Under the pieces are notes generated by a model. That model saw nothing but the letters and a program-made list of their open reading frames with translations, was not told the DNA's origin and ran no database searches. A stretch of 49,216 nt of DNA from a virus. Numbering within the stretch: position 1 is the first letter of the stretch; every line of letters starts with the position of its first letter. A program made the position numbers and the translations under genes. Below, piece after piece: positions 34,280 to 40,689 of the stretch. The stretch is from IMG/VR virus record IMGVR_UViG_3300046003_007389, positions 1 to 49,216 of that record; one strand, 5' to 3'.

Positions 34280-34580
34280 TACTGATTTTTTTAGTGAATT
34301 TTACATTTAATTTAACACCCGGATTTTCAGCTAATCTTTTAAATTTTTTAGCCATTTTTAATCCTTGAGCCTCTGTTTTAAAAACAATTTCAACATCTAT
34401 TGTTCCTAAAAAATCGCCCTTTTCTACTTTTTCGAATAAAACTTTGGCTTCTTTTGGCGACATCTTTTTTGTATCTCCGTTTTTTTGCATAATTGAGCCT
34501 TCTGCTTTTGGAAATTCTCTATGATTTTCGCTTGCTCTGTAAACTTGCTTATGAAGTTCGTTTGTTTCTTGATTTCCCAT
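34260..34580 (-). CDS. Unknown charged protein between queE and dnaN
   Basis: The ATG at 34580 overlaps the queE stop in TAATG, giving 106 residues; an earlier in-frame start is inside queE. The sequence is charged, with MSPKEAKVLFEKVEKGD and a strand-rich centre (GTIDVEIVFKTEAQGLKMAK) ending in a basic tail. I do not recognise it. Strict coupling to queE and dnaN suggests it belongs to the modification/replication operon. Confidence 0.6.
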   Translation of the reverse strand: MGNQETNELHKQVYRASENHREFPKAEGSIMQKNGDTKKMSPKEAKVLFEKVEKGDFLGTIDVEIVFKTEAQGLKMAKKFKRLAENPGVKLNVKFTKKISNEKNQN

Positions 34581-35278
34581 TATACACCTGTTTTTTGATT
34601 CCAAATTACTATATGAAGACGTTCTGAGTATCTTACGCAATGTTTAACGCAAAGTTCAGCGACCATTTGTCTTGTTACATTTAATTTTTCTTGAGTATCG
34701 CCAGCAGGCATTAAAACCACCTTGTCTTTTGAAAGGTATTTACCATAATCGATACTTATTTCAGTCATGTCAAATTCATCATCAACAACAAATTTAAAAA
34801 TAGAACCGGTTAAGTTATTTAATCTTTCAATTACTGCGGGTTTAATTCTTCTTTGTTCTGTTTCACCGCTGTTTGCAAGTTTAGGAGAACAATTCCAATA
34901 TTTCACAGCCATAATCATTTCTTTGTTTGGCATTATTGTCCCATTAGTTTCAACTTCAATAATTGGCTGAAACTCATACTTTTTGTAAAACCATTTAAGA
35001 TATTCGACAATTGCAACTTGATGAAGTAATGGTTCGCCACCTGTAAAAATTAAATGAGCTCCATTAACAAGTTTATTAACTTCGTCTTCGCTAATCACTT
35101 GGTCAAAAGGTGTTTTCGTGCCTTTTTTCCATACTTCAATACTGTCACAGACCCAATTATCTGATTGACATAAAATATTACAACCTGAGAGCCTTACAAA
35201 AATAGAAGGAATTCCCATTGTTTGCCCTTCACCTTGTATGCTGTAAAATTTTTCTGAAACCACTAAACTATCTTTCAT
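34580..35278 (-). CDS. queE: 7-carboxy-7-deazaguanine synthase QueE
   Basis: This radical SAM enzyme turns 6-carboxytetrahydropterin into CDG, the base skeleton of all 7-deazaguanines. At 232 residues it has FYSIQGEGQTMGIPSIFVRL at the start, Cys33, Cys37 and Cys44 as cluster ligands, FTGGEPLLHQ for SAM and VETNGT. The spacing of the cysteines (C-x3-C-x6-C) differs from the standard C-x3-C-x2-C. It follows the ParB-like gene with an 11-base overlap. It makes the precursor for the DpdA-like transglycosylase. Confidence 0.93.
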   Translation of the reverse strand: MKDSLVVSEKFYSIQGEGQTMGIPSIFVRLSGCNILCQSDNWVCDSIEVWKKGTKTPFDQVISEDEVNKLVNGAHLIFTGGEPLLHQVAIVEYLKWFYKKYEFQPIIEVETNGTIMPNKEMIMAVKYWNCSPKLANSGETEQRRIKPAVIERLNNLTGSIFKFVVDDEFDMTEISIDYGKYLSKDKVVLMPAGDTQEKLNVTRQMVAELCVKHCVRYSERLHIVIWNQKTGV

Positions 35279-35759
35279 TTTCGAATGGATTTATTTGTGA
35301 ATTAAATTGTTTTTTATTGAACTCGTTCCAATCAAAATCCAAAAGAGTTGCATATCTTTCGACATTTTCTAAATCAAGTCCGGTTCTGTTTGCAATTGTG
35401 TTTGATGTATATTCGTTTTTGTTTAGATATGAAATTACTTCAGCAATACCAAGATAATCAAGTCTTGATTGATGCACGTTAAGAGCAACTCTGTAAAACT
35501 CATATTCACCATGTTCAAGTTTTCCAAGATTGTAACAAAGAATTTTTTTCTCACCATTTCTTTTTAAAGACTTAAAATATTTGTTTCCATCAACGATTTT
35601 ATAACAACCATTAACCTCACAAACTGTAATCGCCTTATATTGACCAAGTTTCTTTGTAATTGCATTAATTGAAATCATAACATTTTTATCAAGTTCAGTT
35701 ACCACTTCAATACTCGATGTTATGATATTTTTAGTTTTTAATATTTCAAATCTTCCCAT
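35268..35759 (-). CDS. ParB/DGQHR-like protein with HTH
   Basis: This protein of 163 residues has a ParB-N/sulfiredoxin-like domain with YKIVDGNKYFKSL (53-65), which is in the place of the ParB/DndB DGxHR motif, and a helix-turn-helix (about 117-144; YTSNTIANRTGLDLENVERY). It overlaps both queE (11 bases) and the dpdA-like gene (22 bases). In bacterial dpd clusters DpdA needs a DGQHR-type partner, DpdB, for base exchange. This protein could play that part here, or be a site-specific DNA binder; both are inference. Confidence 0.72.
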   Translation of the reverse strand: MGRFEILKTKNIITSSIEVVTELDKNVMISINAITKKLGQYKAITVCEVNGCYKIVDGNKYFKSLKRNGEKKILCYNLGKLEHGEYEFYRVALNVHQSRLDYLGIAEVISYLNKNEYTSNTIANRTGLDLENVERYATLLDFDWNEFNKKQFNSQINPFENER

Positions 35760-36535
35760 ATAATACCTTTTTTAGACCACAGCTCTGTGATATATTCTTG
35801 TGTTTTTTTAGTTTCTAAGATTGCTTTTTCTAAACGTTGCCAATCATCATCATAACATTCAATAGACTTTACTTTAAATATATCTTCTCTTTCATTAAAA
35901 GCCATAATAGGTCGAGTATATCTTCCAAAAATAACAGTACTTAAAGGTGAAGTTGAATCGACGCTAAAAAAAGGATATTTTTCCATTAAACCTAACTTTG
36001 TCATCGCAAAACCATGAAGTTTTACTTTATCTTTAGTTAGGTTAAAAATATCATCCAAATAAGGTGTTGAATCGTTACCTATTCCAATGTATTCATGTCC
36101 ATCATTAATCCATTTTTTTAAAGTTTTAAAATCACCATTATCTAACATAGGATGATAGACTCTAATCATTTTACCCTTGATGCCTATTTTTTGCACTTCG
36201 TCATAAAATTCATCAATTACTTTTCTGTCAAGACAACCGTAAACATCAAACTCAACCCAGACCACTTTTTTATCCTTGTGCAACTTAATGAAATCAAGGT
36301 AGCTAATAAGAAATTCGTCGGCTGGTTTTAGTTTACTCGTTCTCTTCATACCTGTTGGCGTGATGTTCTCTTTGTTCCAACTGTGAGCACCACTGTCAAC
36401 CATTAAGAAATTTTCGTCGTTCCAATTTTCAATCAACTTTTTTTCATTCAACATTGAATAAAGTTTGCAAAGTTTATTTTCAATGACGACTCTACTGCAA
36501 TTTCTTGTGTCGCTTCCGGCTATAATTATCTTCAA
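35738..36535 (-). CDS. dpdA: DpdA-like DNA transglycosylase (TGT fold)
   Basis: This 265-residue protein is like short phage DpdA proteins, which swap guanine in DNA for a 7-deazaguanine. Signs are LMVDSGAHSW (44-53, cf. the TGT DSGG region with an active-site Asp), VEFDVYG (94-100), YIGIGND (149-155), and LHGFAMTK followed by YPFFSVDSTS (187-196), which are typical of this group. It is translationally coupled to the glycosyltransferase upstream (4-base overlap) and the ParB-like gene downstream. The subgroup (DpdA1-4) cannot be settled by eye. Confidence 0.86.
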   Translation of the reverse strand: MKIIIAGSDTRNCSRVVIENKLCKLYSMLNEKKLIENWNDENFLMVDSGAHSWNKENITPTGMKRTSKLKPADEFLISYLDFIKLHKDKKVVWVEFDVYGCLDRKVIDEFYDEVQKIGIKGKMIRVYHPMLDNGDFKTLKKWINDGHEYIGIGNDSTPYLDDIFNLTKDKVKLHGFAMTKLGLMEKYPFFSVDSTSPLSTVIFGRYTRPIMAFNEREDIFKVKSIECYDDDWQRLEKAILETKKTQEYITELWSKKGIIWEDLKY

Positions 36536-37518
36536 TTATTAATAAATTTAATGATTTCCTTTGCGTTATGATTCCATCTTTCAGTATAGATATCTTTGAC
36601 TTGAGCAAAATTAATATCGTCAATATGGTCAAATAAAGCATCTTTTCTCACCATTTCAGGATAACATGATCTATTTGGTACAGCAATAAGACAATTGAAG
36701 TGAATTGCTTCTTGAAGAGTATATCCAAAAGTTTCTTGATATGCAGTACTTAAATAATATTTTGCCCTTGCTAAAACTTCATAATATTGTTTTTTAGTCA
36801 AATTATAAAGATAAGTGACGTTTTCAGGTAAATCAATATCTACTTTGTTTCCGCTTGATGTAATTACAATTTTTTTATCGGTTTTATTTGCAAACTCTAA
36901 AAATTCTTCAATACCTTTTTCACTCGAAAGTCTGTGAGGAAAAACAACAAAATCTTCCTTAATTACTTCTTCATTAAAAATACTTCTAACATAATCTCTG
37001 TCCCAGATATAACCTGTTACGTGAATTTTTTTATAATCGATATTAAAGTGATTTAATATATTGTTTTTATGGTAAAAGCTACCAACAAAAATACCGTCAC
37101 ATACATCATGATAACCTTTTTCGCAAACATCTGCCCATTTACCAAGTTTTTGAACAAAGTCGTTTTTATCTGCACGTCCGGCATAATTAAAACCAAAAAT
37201 CTGAACTTTTATGTCTTGTAATTCAGCCATATATTTTATCGACTCTAGACCCGGAAAGAACATATCAGCAATAAGAAAAACATCACCATCTAAAATTTCT
37301 TTTTTGTAAAACATTTCAGCAATCATCTGCAGTTGTTTTGTCTTGTAGATAATTGTTTTGTTTACATCTAAAAACTGACCACTTTCAATCACTTCAGGGT
37401 AATTAAATTCAGGAGCTATAACAATTGAAATATCATCTATTTCAAAAGCCTTGTTCATCATTTTTGAATACCTTTGCTCAATGTTTTCAAGAGGTACATA
37501 AATAATTCTTTTTTTCAT
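36532..37518 (-). CDS. GT-B glycosyltransferase (GT4-like)
   Basis: This 328-residue protein has a two-domain GT-B outline. The C-terminal donor domain shows FPHRLSSEKG (193-202), with the conserved basic and E-K residues, and ETFGYTLQEA (262-271), the E-x7-E motif of retaining GT4-type enzymes. The N-terminal acceptor domain is divergent. It is one base from the radical SAM gene upstream and overlaps dpdA downstream. A role in adding sugar to the deazaguanine in DNA is the likely inference from this embedding. Donor and acceptor are unknown. Confidence 0.8.
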   Translation of the reverse strand: MKKRIIYVPLENIEQRYSKMMNKAFEIDDISIVIAPEFNYPEVIESGQFLDVNKTIIYKTKQLQMIAEMFYKKEILDGDVFLIADMFFPGLESIKYMAELQDIKVQIFGFNYAGRADKNDFVQKLGKWADVCEKGYHDVCDGIFVGSFYHKNNILNHFNIDYKKIHVTGYIWDRDYVRSIFNEEVIKEDFVVFPHRLSSEKGIEEFLEFANKTDKKIVITSSGNKVDIDLPENVTYLYNLTKKQYYEVLARAKYYLSTAYQETFGYTLQEAIHFNCLIAVPNRSCYPEMVRKDALFDHIDDINFAQVKDIYTERWNHNAKEIIKFINN

Positions 37519-38237
37519 TATCTGTCTTTTTTATGTTCTTTTTTACCCTCATAATCTCCAACCACCAAGGCGTGCTTAAATCTAAATCCTTGACAAGTTT
37601 TACAGGCATCAATTCCTTTACCAGCAATAGCATCAGCATCAAAATCAAAAATAGTTCCAAAAGGTTCTTCTGTGTTAAAATCTTGACAACATCTAACAAT
37701 TCTGCCATCCCATTGTACTTGAACCCAATTATCTTCAATGTAAGAACAGTTTGTAGGTGTGTTTTTTGATTCACCAACACGACTTGCCCAATCGTAAAGT
37801 TCTTTTTTCTCTTGAAATTCTTTTGGTTCACTATCAACCACAATATGTTCGATTTTAAAATCAGGTCTTTCAATAACTTTACCTTCAGGCCATTCAAAAT
37901 AATCGCTCGCAACTACCAATCTGGTAAGACCTGCTTCGTAAAGATTGTCATACATTTTTTGCGTGACCATTTTGCCGTTGCTGTTCAAAAGTGTTTTAAT
38001 ACCTGCATCAGTAAACATTTTAACGATTTGAATAATTTGCGGATGCATTAAAGGCTCACCAAGTCCGTTTATTGAAATAGTGTCAGCCGCTTGCATTTTA
38101 ATGATTTGAGCAACTGTTTCAAGGGTCACGTGACCTTTTGGTCTGTTATGTAGTTCAGGATTAGGATGTGGACAAAACCAACATTTTGCGTTACAATGGT
38201 TAGTGGTTTCCATTGCAAAAATTTTAATTTTTTTCAT
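37518..38237 (-). CDS. Radical SAM protein with SPASM-like C-terminus
   Basis: This enzyme of 239 residues has the canonical C-x3-C-x2-C (Cys15, 19, 22; TNHCNAKCWFC), the NGLGEP SAM motif (57-62), and a C-terminal cluster-binding part with Cys164, Cys183/184 (IVRCCQDF) and Cys212/215 (CKTCQG). It is distinct from QueE. Auxiliary-cluster enzymes of this type often modify sugars, peptides or nucleobases. Direct coupling to the glycosyltransferase suggests that it acts on the base or on the sugar donor. The true reaction is unknown. Confidence 0.85.
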   Translation of the reverse strand: MKKIKIFAMETTNHCNAKCWFCPHPNPELHNRPKGHVTLETVAQIIKMQAADTISINGLGEPLMHPQIIQIVKMFTDAGIKTLLNSNGKMVTQKMYDNLYEAGLTRLVVASDYFEWPEGKVIERPDFKIEHIVVDSEPKEFQEKKELYDWASRVGESKNTPTNCSYIEDNWVQVQWDGRIVRCCQDFNTEEPFGTIFDFDADAIAGKGIDACKTCQGFRFKHALVVGDYEGKKEHKKDR

Positions 38238-38241
38238 ATTT

Positions 38242-38589
38242 TTAAAGTAGCACTTCGGCGCCGTTCTCGTTATCTTCTAAAACTTTACAATAATTAAGAT
38301 TAAATTCTTTAAGTAGGTCTTTAGCAATTTCCTCACAACTCATTCTTCCAAAATTACAACCCTCAGCACCTTTATAACCTACTCCAAATTGCTCTAATAA
38401 GTAAAATCGAATTCTTCTTTTTAGTTGAATGATTTCAATTTGTCTATCATCGTGATAAACTTCTTTTTTGCATTCAATGTGAAAAATGTGTCTGTGAGGA
38501 TGTTTTAAAAATTCAACCTCTTTTATTGGACATTCAGGCCAAGAGTGCATTCCCTCAACCTGTAATGTTATTATGATATTAGTCTTCAT
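38242..38589 (-). CDS. T-fold-like protein, possible QueD relative
   Basis: This protein of 115 residues is close in length to QueD. HPHRHIFHI (30-38) stands where QueD has its zinc-binding HGH, SCEEIAKDL (84-92) is like the PTxENLA helix, and LEDNENGA (104-111) resembles the acidic end. I infer a tunnelling (T-) fold. It overlaps the repeat-protein gene by 11 bases and lies 4 bases from the radical SAM gene. It may catalyse a further step on the pterin or deazaguanine, for example decarboxylation of CDG. This is a guess from cluster logic. Confidence 0.55.
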   Translation of the reverse strand: MKTNIIITLQVEGMHSWPECPIKEVEFLKHPHRHIFHIECKKEVYHDDRQIEIIQLKRRIRFYLLEQFGVGYKGAEGCNFGRMSCEEIAKDLLKEFNLNYCKVLEDNENGAEVLL

Positions 38590-39205
38590 TTTTAGAGTTT
38601 TTTACTTTTAAAGACTTTTGTTTTTCAAGTGCTTTTTCAACTCTTTTAGGATCCTCTTTTGCGGCTTTAATTGCGTTGTAAACATGACCTTTTGACCAAT
38701 CGTTATGCAACTCTAAAATCTTCTTTTGGTCAAAACCTTTAGAGTGGTAAACGTAAATTTCCTCACTTCTTGAAAGTTCTTTTACTTTTACAGTTTTGTC
38801 CGCTTTTACAGTTTTATCTGCTTTTACAGTTTTATCCGCTTTTACAGTTTTATCCGCTTTTACAGTTTTATCCGCTTTTACAGTTTTATCTGCTTTTACA
38901 GTTTTATCCGCTTTTACAGTTTTATCCGCTTTTACAGTTTTATCCGCTTTTACAGTTTTATCCGCTTTTACAGTTTTATCTGCTTTTACAGTTTCTTTTT
39001 CTTCTGCAGGCTGTGATTCGGTTTTAGGAAAATATCTTTCCATTAAAACACTAACTTTAAAAGTCTTTCTATTTCCATCAACCGTTAATCTAACTGAACC
39101 GGCCTGTTCAGTCACTTTTGTTTTTGAAATTGAATTGATAATTTCTCCTTCACTTGTAATGAAATACATTGGAGCTTCTGCTAATTTTTTTTCTACTTTG
39201 CTCAT
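38579..39205 (-). CDS. Modular protein with TVKADK tandem repeats
   Basis: This protein of 208 residues has three parts. Residues 10-60 (MYFITSEGEIINSISKTKV, VRLTVDGNRKTFKVS) resemble a NUMOD4-like DNA-binding module. Residues 72-137 are 11 exact TVKADK repeats plus a twelfth degenerate unit. The C-terminus (RSEEIYVYHSKGFDQKK to WSKGHVYNAIKAAK) looks like an HTH. Two DNA-binding ends joined by a basic-acidic flexible linker is the most natural reading. It may be a structural or regulatory DNA protein of the modification operon. Confidence 0.65.
   Translation of the reverse strand: MSKVEKKLAEAPMYFITSEGEIINSISKTKVTEQAGSVRLTVDGNRKTFKVSVLMERYFPKTESQPAEEKETVKADKTVKADKTVKADKTVKADKTVKADKTVKADKTVKADKTVKADKTVKADKTVKADKTVKADKTVKVKELSRSEEIYVYHSKGFDQKKILELHNDWSKGHVYNAIKAAKEDPKRVEKALEKQKSLKVKNSKNED
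38784..38994 (-). repeat. 18-base tandem repeat, 11 full units
   Basis: The unit, read on the + strand, is ACAGTTTTATCCGCTTTT, with single-base variants at the CCG (CTG in units 2, 6 and 11; GTCCG in the first). It encodes TVKADK in frame on the - strand. The near-identity at DNA level implies recent expansion or gene conversion, and repeat number probably varies between strains. Confidence 0.95.
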
Positions 39206-39216
39206 GATTTTGATTA

Positions 39217-39486
39217 TTATTTGTTTTTATTAATTACTTTGCCGCACAAAGGATAAATTCTTGTGTAATACTTTGTACCCGCTTTTATTTTTCTGTTTTT
39301 AAAAACTATGTCAAATTCAGCCACGTGATGCGTTGTGCTTTCATAACCTATTTTACCACTTTCGTTTGTTTCAACGTTTTTTGTACCAATAAATTTTCCG
39401 TCAACAATGTACTCAACAAAAAATCCAATGTTTTCAAATTTTGTTGTCGAATAATCTAAATCGATTGCTTTTACTTTAGGTTCCAT
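39217..39486 (-). CDS. Unknown small early protein
   Basis: The ATG at 39486 (89 residues, MEPKVKAIDLDYST) lies behind P39.5; a longer frame from 39582 runs through the promoter. It looks all-beta (FFVEYIVDGKFIGTKNV, AEFDIVFKNRKI). I do not recognise it. It is the first cistron of the operon that contains most of the modification genes. Confidence 0.6.
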   Translation of the reverse strand: MEPKVKAIDLDYSTTKFENIGFFVEYIVDGKFIGTKNVETNESGKIGYESTTHHVAEFDIVFKNRKIKAGTKYYTRIYPLCGKVINKNK

Positions 39487-39517
39487 CTTTATTCTGTTAT
39501 TTGTTATATCTACAGAG

Positions 39518-39549
39518 CAAAAATATGGTAATAAATTCATTCTACAAAA
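39518..39549 (-). promoter_or_regulatory. Early promoter P39.5 (modification operon)
   Basis: On the - strand: TTTTG at 39549-39545, 19 bases, TATTTTTG at 39525-39518, followed by the leader TAGATATAACAAAT. It splits queD/folE (upstream unit) from the repeat protein, T-fold protein, radical SAM, glycosyltransferase, dpdA, queE, dnaN and primase. Confidence 0.8.
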
Positions 39550-39575
39550 CATTTTGCAAAAAATTTTAATTTTTT

Positions 39576-40040
39576 TTACCAAGAATAAATTCCTGAGTTT
39601 TTATCATTTTCAAAAACTTCAACTTTACTGACCATAATCCTGCCGCCTTCAGTTTTTTCAAATACATCTGTAAATTTATCAAAGATTAATTTGGCTAATG
39701 ATTCAGCACCCATTTTATCCATAATGCGTAACGAACACAAACCAAGTTCTTCAAGCACTTTAAATGACTCTAACTGTGGATCGTCTTTTTCAACTAACAA
39801 TGTATGGTCAAACATATAATTTAACCAATCTTTTAACCCATTGCGGCTAAAAAGACCAAAGTCAACAATCCAATTCATTTCGTCTAACATTTTGTCAGTT
39901 TCGCATTCTTTTGACTCAAACCAAACTTTAATTTTAAAAGCATAACCGTGAAGCAATTGACAATGACTATGTTGAGCCTTGTGCTGTCTTAATGCGACAG
40001 AAAAATTGTCAAAGATTTTAGTTGATTGATAATTTGCCAT
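39576..40040 (-). CDS. queD: 6-carboxy-5,6,7,8-tetrahydropterin synthase QueD-like
   Basis: This protein of 154 residues catalyses the second step from GTP to CDG. Diagnostic parts are SHCQLLHGYAFKIKVWF, with Cys27 and His31, and WIVDFG (57-62) and MFDHTLLVEKDDPQL. The usual HGH is HGY here (Tyr33), a form I associate with a phage subgroup, so the zinc ligand set may differ. It starts one base downstream of folE's end and the pair is clearly one unit. Length is somewhat above the 120 residues of E. coli QueD. Confidence 0.88.
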   Translation of the reverse strand: MANYQSTKIFDNFSVALRQHKAQHSHCQLLHGYAFKIKVWFESKECETDKMLDEMNWIVDFGLFSRNGLKDWLNYMFDHTLLVEKDDPQLESFKVLEELGLCSLRIMDKMGAESLAKLIFDKFTDVFEKTEGGRIMVSKVEVFENDKNSGIYSW

Positions 40041-40041
40041 T

Positions 40042-40689
40042 TTATTTTGTATTTAAGAATTCGTTTCTAACTGAATCATCTTTAAATGCTCCGCCAAGTT
40101 TTCTTGTGGTAGTAAAACAGTTTTTATCTTCAATTCCTCTTGCTTTTACACAATGATGAACGGCTCTAATTTCAACAGCGACATTATCTGTTTCTAAAAT
40201 AAAACAAAGGGCGGCTTGAATTTGTAAAGTAAGTCTTTCTTGAATTTGTGGCCTTTTACTAAAAAATCTTACAATTCTATTGAGTTTTGAAAGTCCTAAA
40301 ACTTTGTCTTTTGGAATATAAGCTACTTTGGCAATTCCTTCAATATTTTGGAAATGGTGCTCGCAAACACTACTCACATCAATACCGCCTTCAATCACCA
40401 TTTCATCGGCTTTAAACTTATTATGGACGTTTGTGCATTTTGGAAAGTTTGAGTAATCAAGACCTTCAAAAATTTCATGAGTAAACATTTTTGCAATTCT
40501 TGACGGTGTATCTTGTAAACTGTCATCAGTTAAGTCAAGTCCAAGAGCATTCATAATTGCATGAAACGAATTATTAATAATTTCAGATTGATCGTTTTTA
40601 TTGTATCTATCCATAATGAATGGAGTTTCAATACCAAGTTCATTTAAGTGTTTATGAACTTCTAATCCTAAATTTTTGTCAGTACTCAT
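40042..40689 (-). CDS. folE: GTP cyclohydrolase I
   Basis: This 215-residue enzyme opens GTP to dihydroneopterin triphosphate, the first step of deazaguanine synthesis. The zinc and active-site motifs are intact: SVCEHHFQNIEG (Cys109, His112), KLNRIVRFFSKRPQIQERLT and AVHHCVKARGIED (Cys180). Length matches the family. By encoding it, the phage does not depend on host FolE for precursor supply. Confidence 0.96.
   Translation of the reverse strand: MSTDKNLGLEVHKHLNELGIETPFIMDRYNKNDQSEIINNSFHAIMNALGLDLTDDSLQDTPSRIAKMFTHEIFEGLDYSNFPKCTNVHNKFKADEMVIEGGIDVSSVCEHHFQNIEGIAKVAYIPKDKVLGLSKLNRIVRFFSKRPQIQERLTLQIQAALCFILETDNVAVEIRAVHHCVKARGIEDKNCFTTTRKLGGAFKDDSVRNEFLNTK

Follow-up and report, generated by a model that had tools for sequence, protein, structure and literature searches.

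Can a phage attach a sugar to a 7-deazaguanine base in its own DNA? The question is raised by an operon in the virus record IMGVR_UViG_3300046003_007389, whose 49,216 bases, taken whole, form the window to which all coordinates here refer. Open reading frames and family scans place in it ten co-directional genes on the minus strand, from 40689 down to 34580, in the order FolE, QueD, a 121-residue protein of unknown function, a repeat protein, a QueD-fold (T-fold) protein, a radical S-adenosylmethionine (SAM) protein, a GT-B glycosyltransferase (GT), a DpdA-like transglycosylase, a ParB-like protein and QueE. A sequence-only reading of the window had seen in these genes a possibly glycosylated guanine derivative, and this idea finds support in the near-obligate linkage of GT, T-fold and transglycosylase described below and in the nucleotide-sugar-type genes that accompany them. 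We think it fairly likely that the operon makes a glycosylated 7-deazaguanine in phage DNA, by a T-fold conversion, insertion by DpdA and then glycosylation.

We find that, across very different phages, the GT almost always goes together with the T-fold protein and with a DpdA- or PA540-type transglycosylase. A T-fold profile was scanned against IMG/VR and the best 80 of at least 594 loci were taken, which together with phage isolates and the window gave 97 T-fold loci. A GT was present in 24 of the 29 loci with a DpdA-type transglycosylase and in 28 of the 29 with a PA540/phrog10773-type one (52/58 together), compared with 0/31 loci of the phrog20335 type, and QueC was found in the neighbourhood of none of the 97. 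Starting from the GT instead, a T-fold gene was found in 77/80 PA540-type and 27/28 window-type loci (104/108), most of which also carry FolE, QueE and a transglycosylase; in the four GT loci that lack a T-fold gene, the GT lies 0.2–1.4 kb from the contig start. These GT-first scans used two subsets of closer GTs; aligning all nine GTs left no stretch fit for scanning, and a single-sequence scan of IMG/VR with the window GT returned no matches. The grouping of the genes into one associated cluster, already proposed from the sequence, thus holds well beyond the window, as it recurs in well over 100 other contigs, far beyond chance.

Many of these loci are mutually related, and the counts are not independent. 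When 198 loci were clustered at 50% T-fold identity they fell into 19 clusters, with a GT in 10 of the 12 DpdA/PA540 T-fold clusters and in none of the four phrog20335 clusters. The T-fold tree is poorly resolved (6/69 inner branches starred), and independent gains are not countable on it; GT and transglycosylase class switch together in three to four of the four supported independent pairs, which are too few for significance. Throughout, the constant component is the T-fold protein, which marks out a branch of the pathway without QueC.

The supply of the precursor is straightforward. FolE, GTP cyclohydrolase I (40042..40689; PF01227, E=1.2e-55; NF006824, above cut-off), a QueD-type 6-carboxytetrahydropterin synthase (39576..40040; PF01242, E=2e-15; phrog_2389, E=1.4e-32) that retains C27, H31, D78-H79, E113 and E144, and the 7-carboxy-7-deazaguanine (CDG) synthase QueE (34580..35278; phrog_2076, E=2.2e-55; TIGR04349, E=6e-19) make up the complete set for CDG synthesis, so that the full route from GTP to CDG claimed by the sequence-only reading is borne out by Pfam, PHROGs and NCBIfam matches. 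A family search found no QueC in the 49-kb record, which excludes the preQ0 branch and leaves the CDG branch. The cluster loop of QueE in the window backbone (34580-35278, and likewise in L001, L003, L004 and L005) reads CX3CX6C, not CX3CX2C, and in the remaining QueE copies of the compared set it varies further.

The T-fold protein (115 residues, 38242..38589) belongs to phrog_17812 (E=2.5e-22), a family of unknown function. Its profile had no match in the PDB by sequence, and the fold was assigned by structure search: the AlphaFold2 model (predicted local distance difference test, pLDDT, 94.5) matches best E. coli QueD (4ntk; template modelling (TM) score 0.73). Each of 202 sequences keeps H15, H32, H34, R49, E52, S84, C85, E86 and E105. 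The His triad of the QueD/PTPS fold (H15, H32, H34) is thus kept; we take these residues to correspond to the metal binders of QueD, and a Glu is presumably placed where QueD binds the pterin edge. We considered and rejected a second QueD, as the catalytic C27 and D78-H79 of QueD have no conserved counterpart in the 202 sequences. The fold, the retained residues and the constant absence of QueC together suggest an enzyme that acts on CDG, probably a CDG decarboxylase yielding 7-deazaguanine. A CDG decarboxylase named DpdL is said to have been proposed by Cui and colleagues in 2023. HVTV-1 was rejected as a carrier of the T-fold gene, having QueC and no T-fold match. In Chryseobacterium phage MA9V-3 (L009, 7461-8342) the T-fold domain forms the C terminus of a protein that matches endonuclease VII-type families on its N-terminal side.

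The GT (328 residues, 36532..37518) scores above the Pfam cut-off for glycosyl transferases group 1 (PF00534, E=1.2e-8; 35.2 bits with a cut-off of 26.4). Its AlphaFold2 model (pLDDT 94.4) has a GT-B fold closest in the PDB to the retaining GT4-type enzymes BshA, MshA, GlgM and BGluT (TM 0.6-0.68 for BshA and MshA), and the EX7E motif of GT4-like enzymes is formed by E262 and E270, so a retaining enzyme is expected. No match to the T4-type DNA glucosyltransferase family was found in Pfam, PHROGs or NCBIfam, which returned only generic group 1 and phage GT families. In an alignment of 40 GTs, with members down to 20–30% identity with the window GT, the acceptor-side residues E11, R16, Y17, Q62, D85, D120 and E133 are invariant, to the same degree as R196, K201 and E270 on the donor side. 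Such invariance on the acceptor side of divergent enzymes suggests that all GTs of the family share one acceptor. A role in surface polysaccharide synthesis was rejected, as the GT-first scans tie the GT to the T-fold.

The window DpdA-type protein (265 residues, 35738..36535) matches phrog_887, ‘queuine tRNA-ribosyltransferase’ (E=2e-17), and its family profile has a single, weak match in the PDB, the DNA-guanine transglycosylase 7ui4 (E=0.009). D47, D97, H174 and D193 are conserved, and the two catalytic Asp residues stand within conserved motifs (D47 in VDSGAH, D193 in SVDSTSP). A DpdA-like transglycosylase is thus indeed present, and DNA-guanine exchange would be its expected activity. The PA540-type protein retains the textbook motifs GDSGGFQ and FDCASPF, the phrog20335-type protein has LDNSAFE and DSS, and we read both as putative transglycosylases like DpdA. 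This assignment and a common origin rest on motif order, because profile-profile comparison of the three families gave no significant score and aligned just the catalytic motif or nothing useful; the PA540 profile found no transglycosylase in the PDB. The three families are mutually exclusive, no locus having two of them. In Cellulophaga phage phi38:2, and in most GT loci of the window type, DpdA has a ParB-annotated gene as its neighbour, and the ParB-like protein of the window (35268..35759; phrog_620, E=6e-5) is a possible DNA-targeting partner of DpdA.

The radical SAM protein (37518..38237; PF04055, E=2e-10) is a different matter. The sequence-only reading saw in it a radical SAM/SPASM-like enzyme of the cluster; the gene with its CX3CX2C motif (CNAKCWFC) is there, but the SPASM-like C-terminus stays below the cut-off (E=0.0025, 18.5 bits with a cut-off of 21.5), and the enzyme is rare and not part of the core, close relatives occurring in just two other contigs (L003 and L027). 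At least three kinds of radical SAM protein occupy the slot between T-fold and GT, namely the window type, one of 331–336 residues (L179 and L181; upstream of the GT in L180) and one of 448 residues (L032, L040, L042, L056, L187 and L204). An optional tailoring enzyme seems the best description. A second QueE was rejected, the QueE profile match being far worse than that of genuine QueE.

Several accessory genes separate the two classes of loci. GalE-like epimerases occur in 53/159 GT loci compared with 2/31 phrog20335 loci, ADH-like and Gfo/Idh/MocA-like genes each in 20/159 compared with 0/31, and phosphoribosyltransferases in 87/159 compared with 6/31. The first three may supply a special nucleotide sugar, while the phosphoribosyltransferase could salvage the guanine freed by the transglycosylase. 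A 157-residue family with no Pfam match (L092, 13856-14329), present in 52/159 loci with a GT and 0/31 of the phrog20335 type, is a candidate for a further pathway enzyme. A 147-residue protein of unassigned family (L004, 6405-6848) is found in 10/159 and 0/31, respectively.

Starting from the observed genes, their order and folds, and the QueC-free partnership of GT, T-fold and transglycosylase, we infer the reactions beyond CDG, the sugar and its site, and whether insertion comes before glycosylation, as follows. FolE, QueD and QueE would convert GTP to CDG, which the T-fold protein would bind and alter, most likely by decarboxylation to 7-deazaguanine. The DpdA-type enzyme, perhaps with the ParB-like protein, would exchange guanine for the modified base in replicated DNA, and the GT-B enzyme would then transfer a sugar from a nucleotide sugar to the base once it is in place; C7, in the major groove, would be the most natural site. 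Base or sugar may be tailored by the radical SAM protein, and the modified DNA would be shielded from restriction.

A number of points weigh against this scheme. If the carboxyl group is removed, C7 is left without a heteroatom, so that either the GT must form a C-glycoside, a rare product among GT4-like enzymes, or the T-fold step differs. No recognised nucleotide-sugar gene lies in the window, and five DpdA-type and one PA540-type T-fold loci have no detected GT. The GT fold also fits many small-molecule and polysaccharide GTs, so the fold alone is uninformative about DNA, and no nucleoside analysis of phages with this gene set was found in the accessible literature. A C-linked sugar at C7 is chemically possible, C7 of 7-deazaguanine being electron-rich, and this is the weakest step. 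That the widespread QueC-free, GT-containing branch makes a C-glycosylated guanine, its sugar joined by a C–C bond to C7 after decarboxylation by the T-fold protein, we put forward only tentatively, as a doubtful but specific version of the scheme.

Alternatively, glycosylation could precede insertion, the T-fold protein and GT making a free sugar-deazaguanine and DpdA or PA540 inserting the finished base. GT and T-fold genes are close and sometimes adjoining (38 of 159 pairs are no more than 150 bases apart), the transglycosylase family differs between loci with and without a GT, as would be expected if the inserted base differs, and small-molecule enzymes, the pterin glucosyltransferase BGluT for example, are among the structural matches of the GT. 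However, the two main GT-associated transglycosylase families are very distant, so a common pocket for a bulky base cannot be argued, and we regard this order of events as rather unlikely.

It is also conceivable that the DNA holds only dCDG or 7-deaza-dG, two forms that Cui and colleagues are said to have added in 2023 to those of the DpdA pathway, and that the GT has a different substrate, be it a polysaccharide, a host protein or some other base. In favour of such a target, phages often encode GT-B enzymes, and the structural match of the GT is a generic one. We consider this reading improbable nonetheless, since the T-fold accompanies 104 of the 108 GT-first loci, mostly with FolE, QueE and a transglycosylase, while the GT is missing from all 31 phrog20335-type loci and its acceptor side is conserved. 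Finally, decoration by the GT of the carboxyl group of CDG, as a glycosyl ester or amide-linked sugar with the T-fold as a binding or channelling protein and no decarboxylase, would profit from the natural handle that CDG offers and from the constant absence of QueC, which leaves the carboxylate free, but seems very improbable, as the T-fold occurs without a GT in 31 phrog20335-type loci and so has its own job, and retains the full metal-type His triad and the invariant Arg and Glu.

Glycosylation of an inserted 7-deazaguanine, which we favor, is directly testable, as cultured phages carry the gene set. FolE, QueD, QueE, T-fold, GT and a PA540/phrog10773-type gene are found in the complete genomes of PA5oct, Phosso, ACP17 and BUCT-ZZ01, in which QueC gave no match; phage X1 has an equal set, with a QueC match below the family cut-off (E=7e-4). 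The PA5oct record (MK797984) annotates FolE and QueD with electrospray ionization tandem mass spectrometry (ESI-MS/MS), and both were apparently detected as proteins. Close relatives of PA5oct, e.g. MIJ3 and Paride, carry GT and T-fold, and the accessible portions of the MIJ3 and Paride papers report no tests of DNA modification. An early estimate of the PA5oct genome of ~375 kb, compared with 287 kb by sequence, is cited in PMC6892783; bulky modified DNA can run anomalously, which is one possible reason among others for the larger figure.

Around the core genes, the window operon is tightly packed, and the genes named by the sequence-only reading and their tight coupling are confirmed. The nine junctions measure 1, -7, 11, -11, 4, -1, -4, -22 and -11 bases, so that adjoining genes overlap by at most 22 bases and are spaced by at most 11, and the stop of the GT shares TTGA with the DpdA start. 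The 121-residue protein (39217..39582), with no Pfam match, has homologues solely in the close backbone relatives L003 and L004. The 208-residue repeat protein (38579..39205), directly upstream of the T-fold gene, contains about 11.7 copies of an 18-base unit encoding KTVKAD (38785-38994); in its L003 and L004 homologues this part is different and built from other repeat units. No Rfam element was found inside the operon, and the rest of the replication region encodes a helicase, a YqaJ-type exonuclease, a primase-like protein, a DnaN-like clamp and a VapE-like protein.

Related modules also occur in contigs with other labels. Five Magnetospirillum contigs (L221, L222, L224 and L227, around positions 6.8–10.9 kb, and L226), one of them from M. 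aberrantis SpK, carry GT, T-fold, a PA540-type transglycosylase and QueD; a 519-residue gene adjoining the module was read as CoiA-like by eye, and these loci are possibly a chromosomal island or prophage. Streptomyces loci (L228, L229 and L230) have T-fold, QueD and FolE; in L228 P450-like and methyltransferase-like genes adjoin (by eye), an arrangement that resembles a gene cluster for the biosynthesis of a 7-deazapurine product. Amycolatopsis/Pseudonocardia loci (L220, L223 and L231) have DpdA, T-fold, QueD, QueE and FolE without a GT, and terminase-like neighbours seen by eye suggest prophages. Two contigs from metagenome-assembled genomes, L212 (labelled Nitrosarchaeum; a T-fold module with GT) and L214 (labelled Nitrosotalea; phrog20335-type), are possibly archaeal viruses.

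For hydroxymethylated pyrimidines, glycosylation of phage DNA is well established. We found no description of a glycosylated 7-deazaguanine in DNA in the searchable literature, which is no proof, as most subscription papers lay outside the search. Beyond the sequence-only reading, our analysis adds the near-obligate pairing of GT and T-fold, the QueC-free class split and the cultured carriers. If the proposal is true, it describes hypermodified bases of a new class and a new means of escaping restriction systems, and it offers candidate functions for the families of unknown function phrog_17812, phrog_20335 and phrog_10773 and for the GT family of jumbo phages such as PA5oct, MIJ3 and Paride.

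Among known systems, the tetrahydrobiopterin glucosyltransferase BGluT (5zer, 9v0l) is likewise a GT-B enzyme, with a UDP-sugar and a guanine-like pterin acceptor, but it shares only 12–14% identity with the window GT and is one among many equal fold matches. In T4-type glucosylation, too, a phage GT-B enzyme adds a sugar to a modified DNA base; there the alpha- and beta-glucosyltransferases act on 5-hydroxymethylcytosine, whereas the base here would be a 7-deazaguanine made via CDG, and the window GT is GT4-like, with no sequence link found. The closest framework is the DpdA pathway, in which FolE, QueD and QueE make CDG and DpdA exchanges guanine in DNA, giving dPreQ0, dPreQ1, dADG and dG+ (Hutinet et al. 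2019, PMC6884629). The window likewise has FolE, QueD, QueE and a DpdA-type transglycosylase in a phage operon, but it lacks QueC and adds a dedicated T-fold partner and a GT-B enzyme, and many members of the GT class have sugar-nucleotide-type genes nearby. The cluster of the Cellulophaga phage phiST type also has FolE, QueD, QueE and T-fold without QueC, but no GT and a transglycosylase of the phrog20335 type, unlike that of the window. Cellulophaga phage phi38:2 (KC821629) shares with the window its backbone, the flanks (DnaN, VirE-like), QueE, QueD, ParB, DpdA and FolE. Its matching interval reads QueE, QueD, QueC, ParB, DpdA, a hypothetical gene, QueF and FolE, so that QueC, QueF and other genes stand in the place taken in the window by T-fold, radical SAM and GT, and within this group of phages the QueC/QueF part is thus swapped for these three genes.

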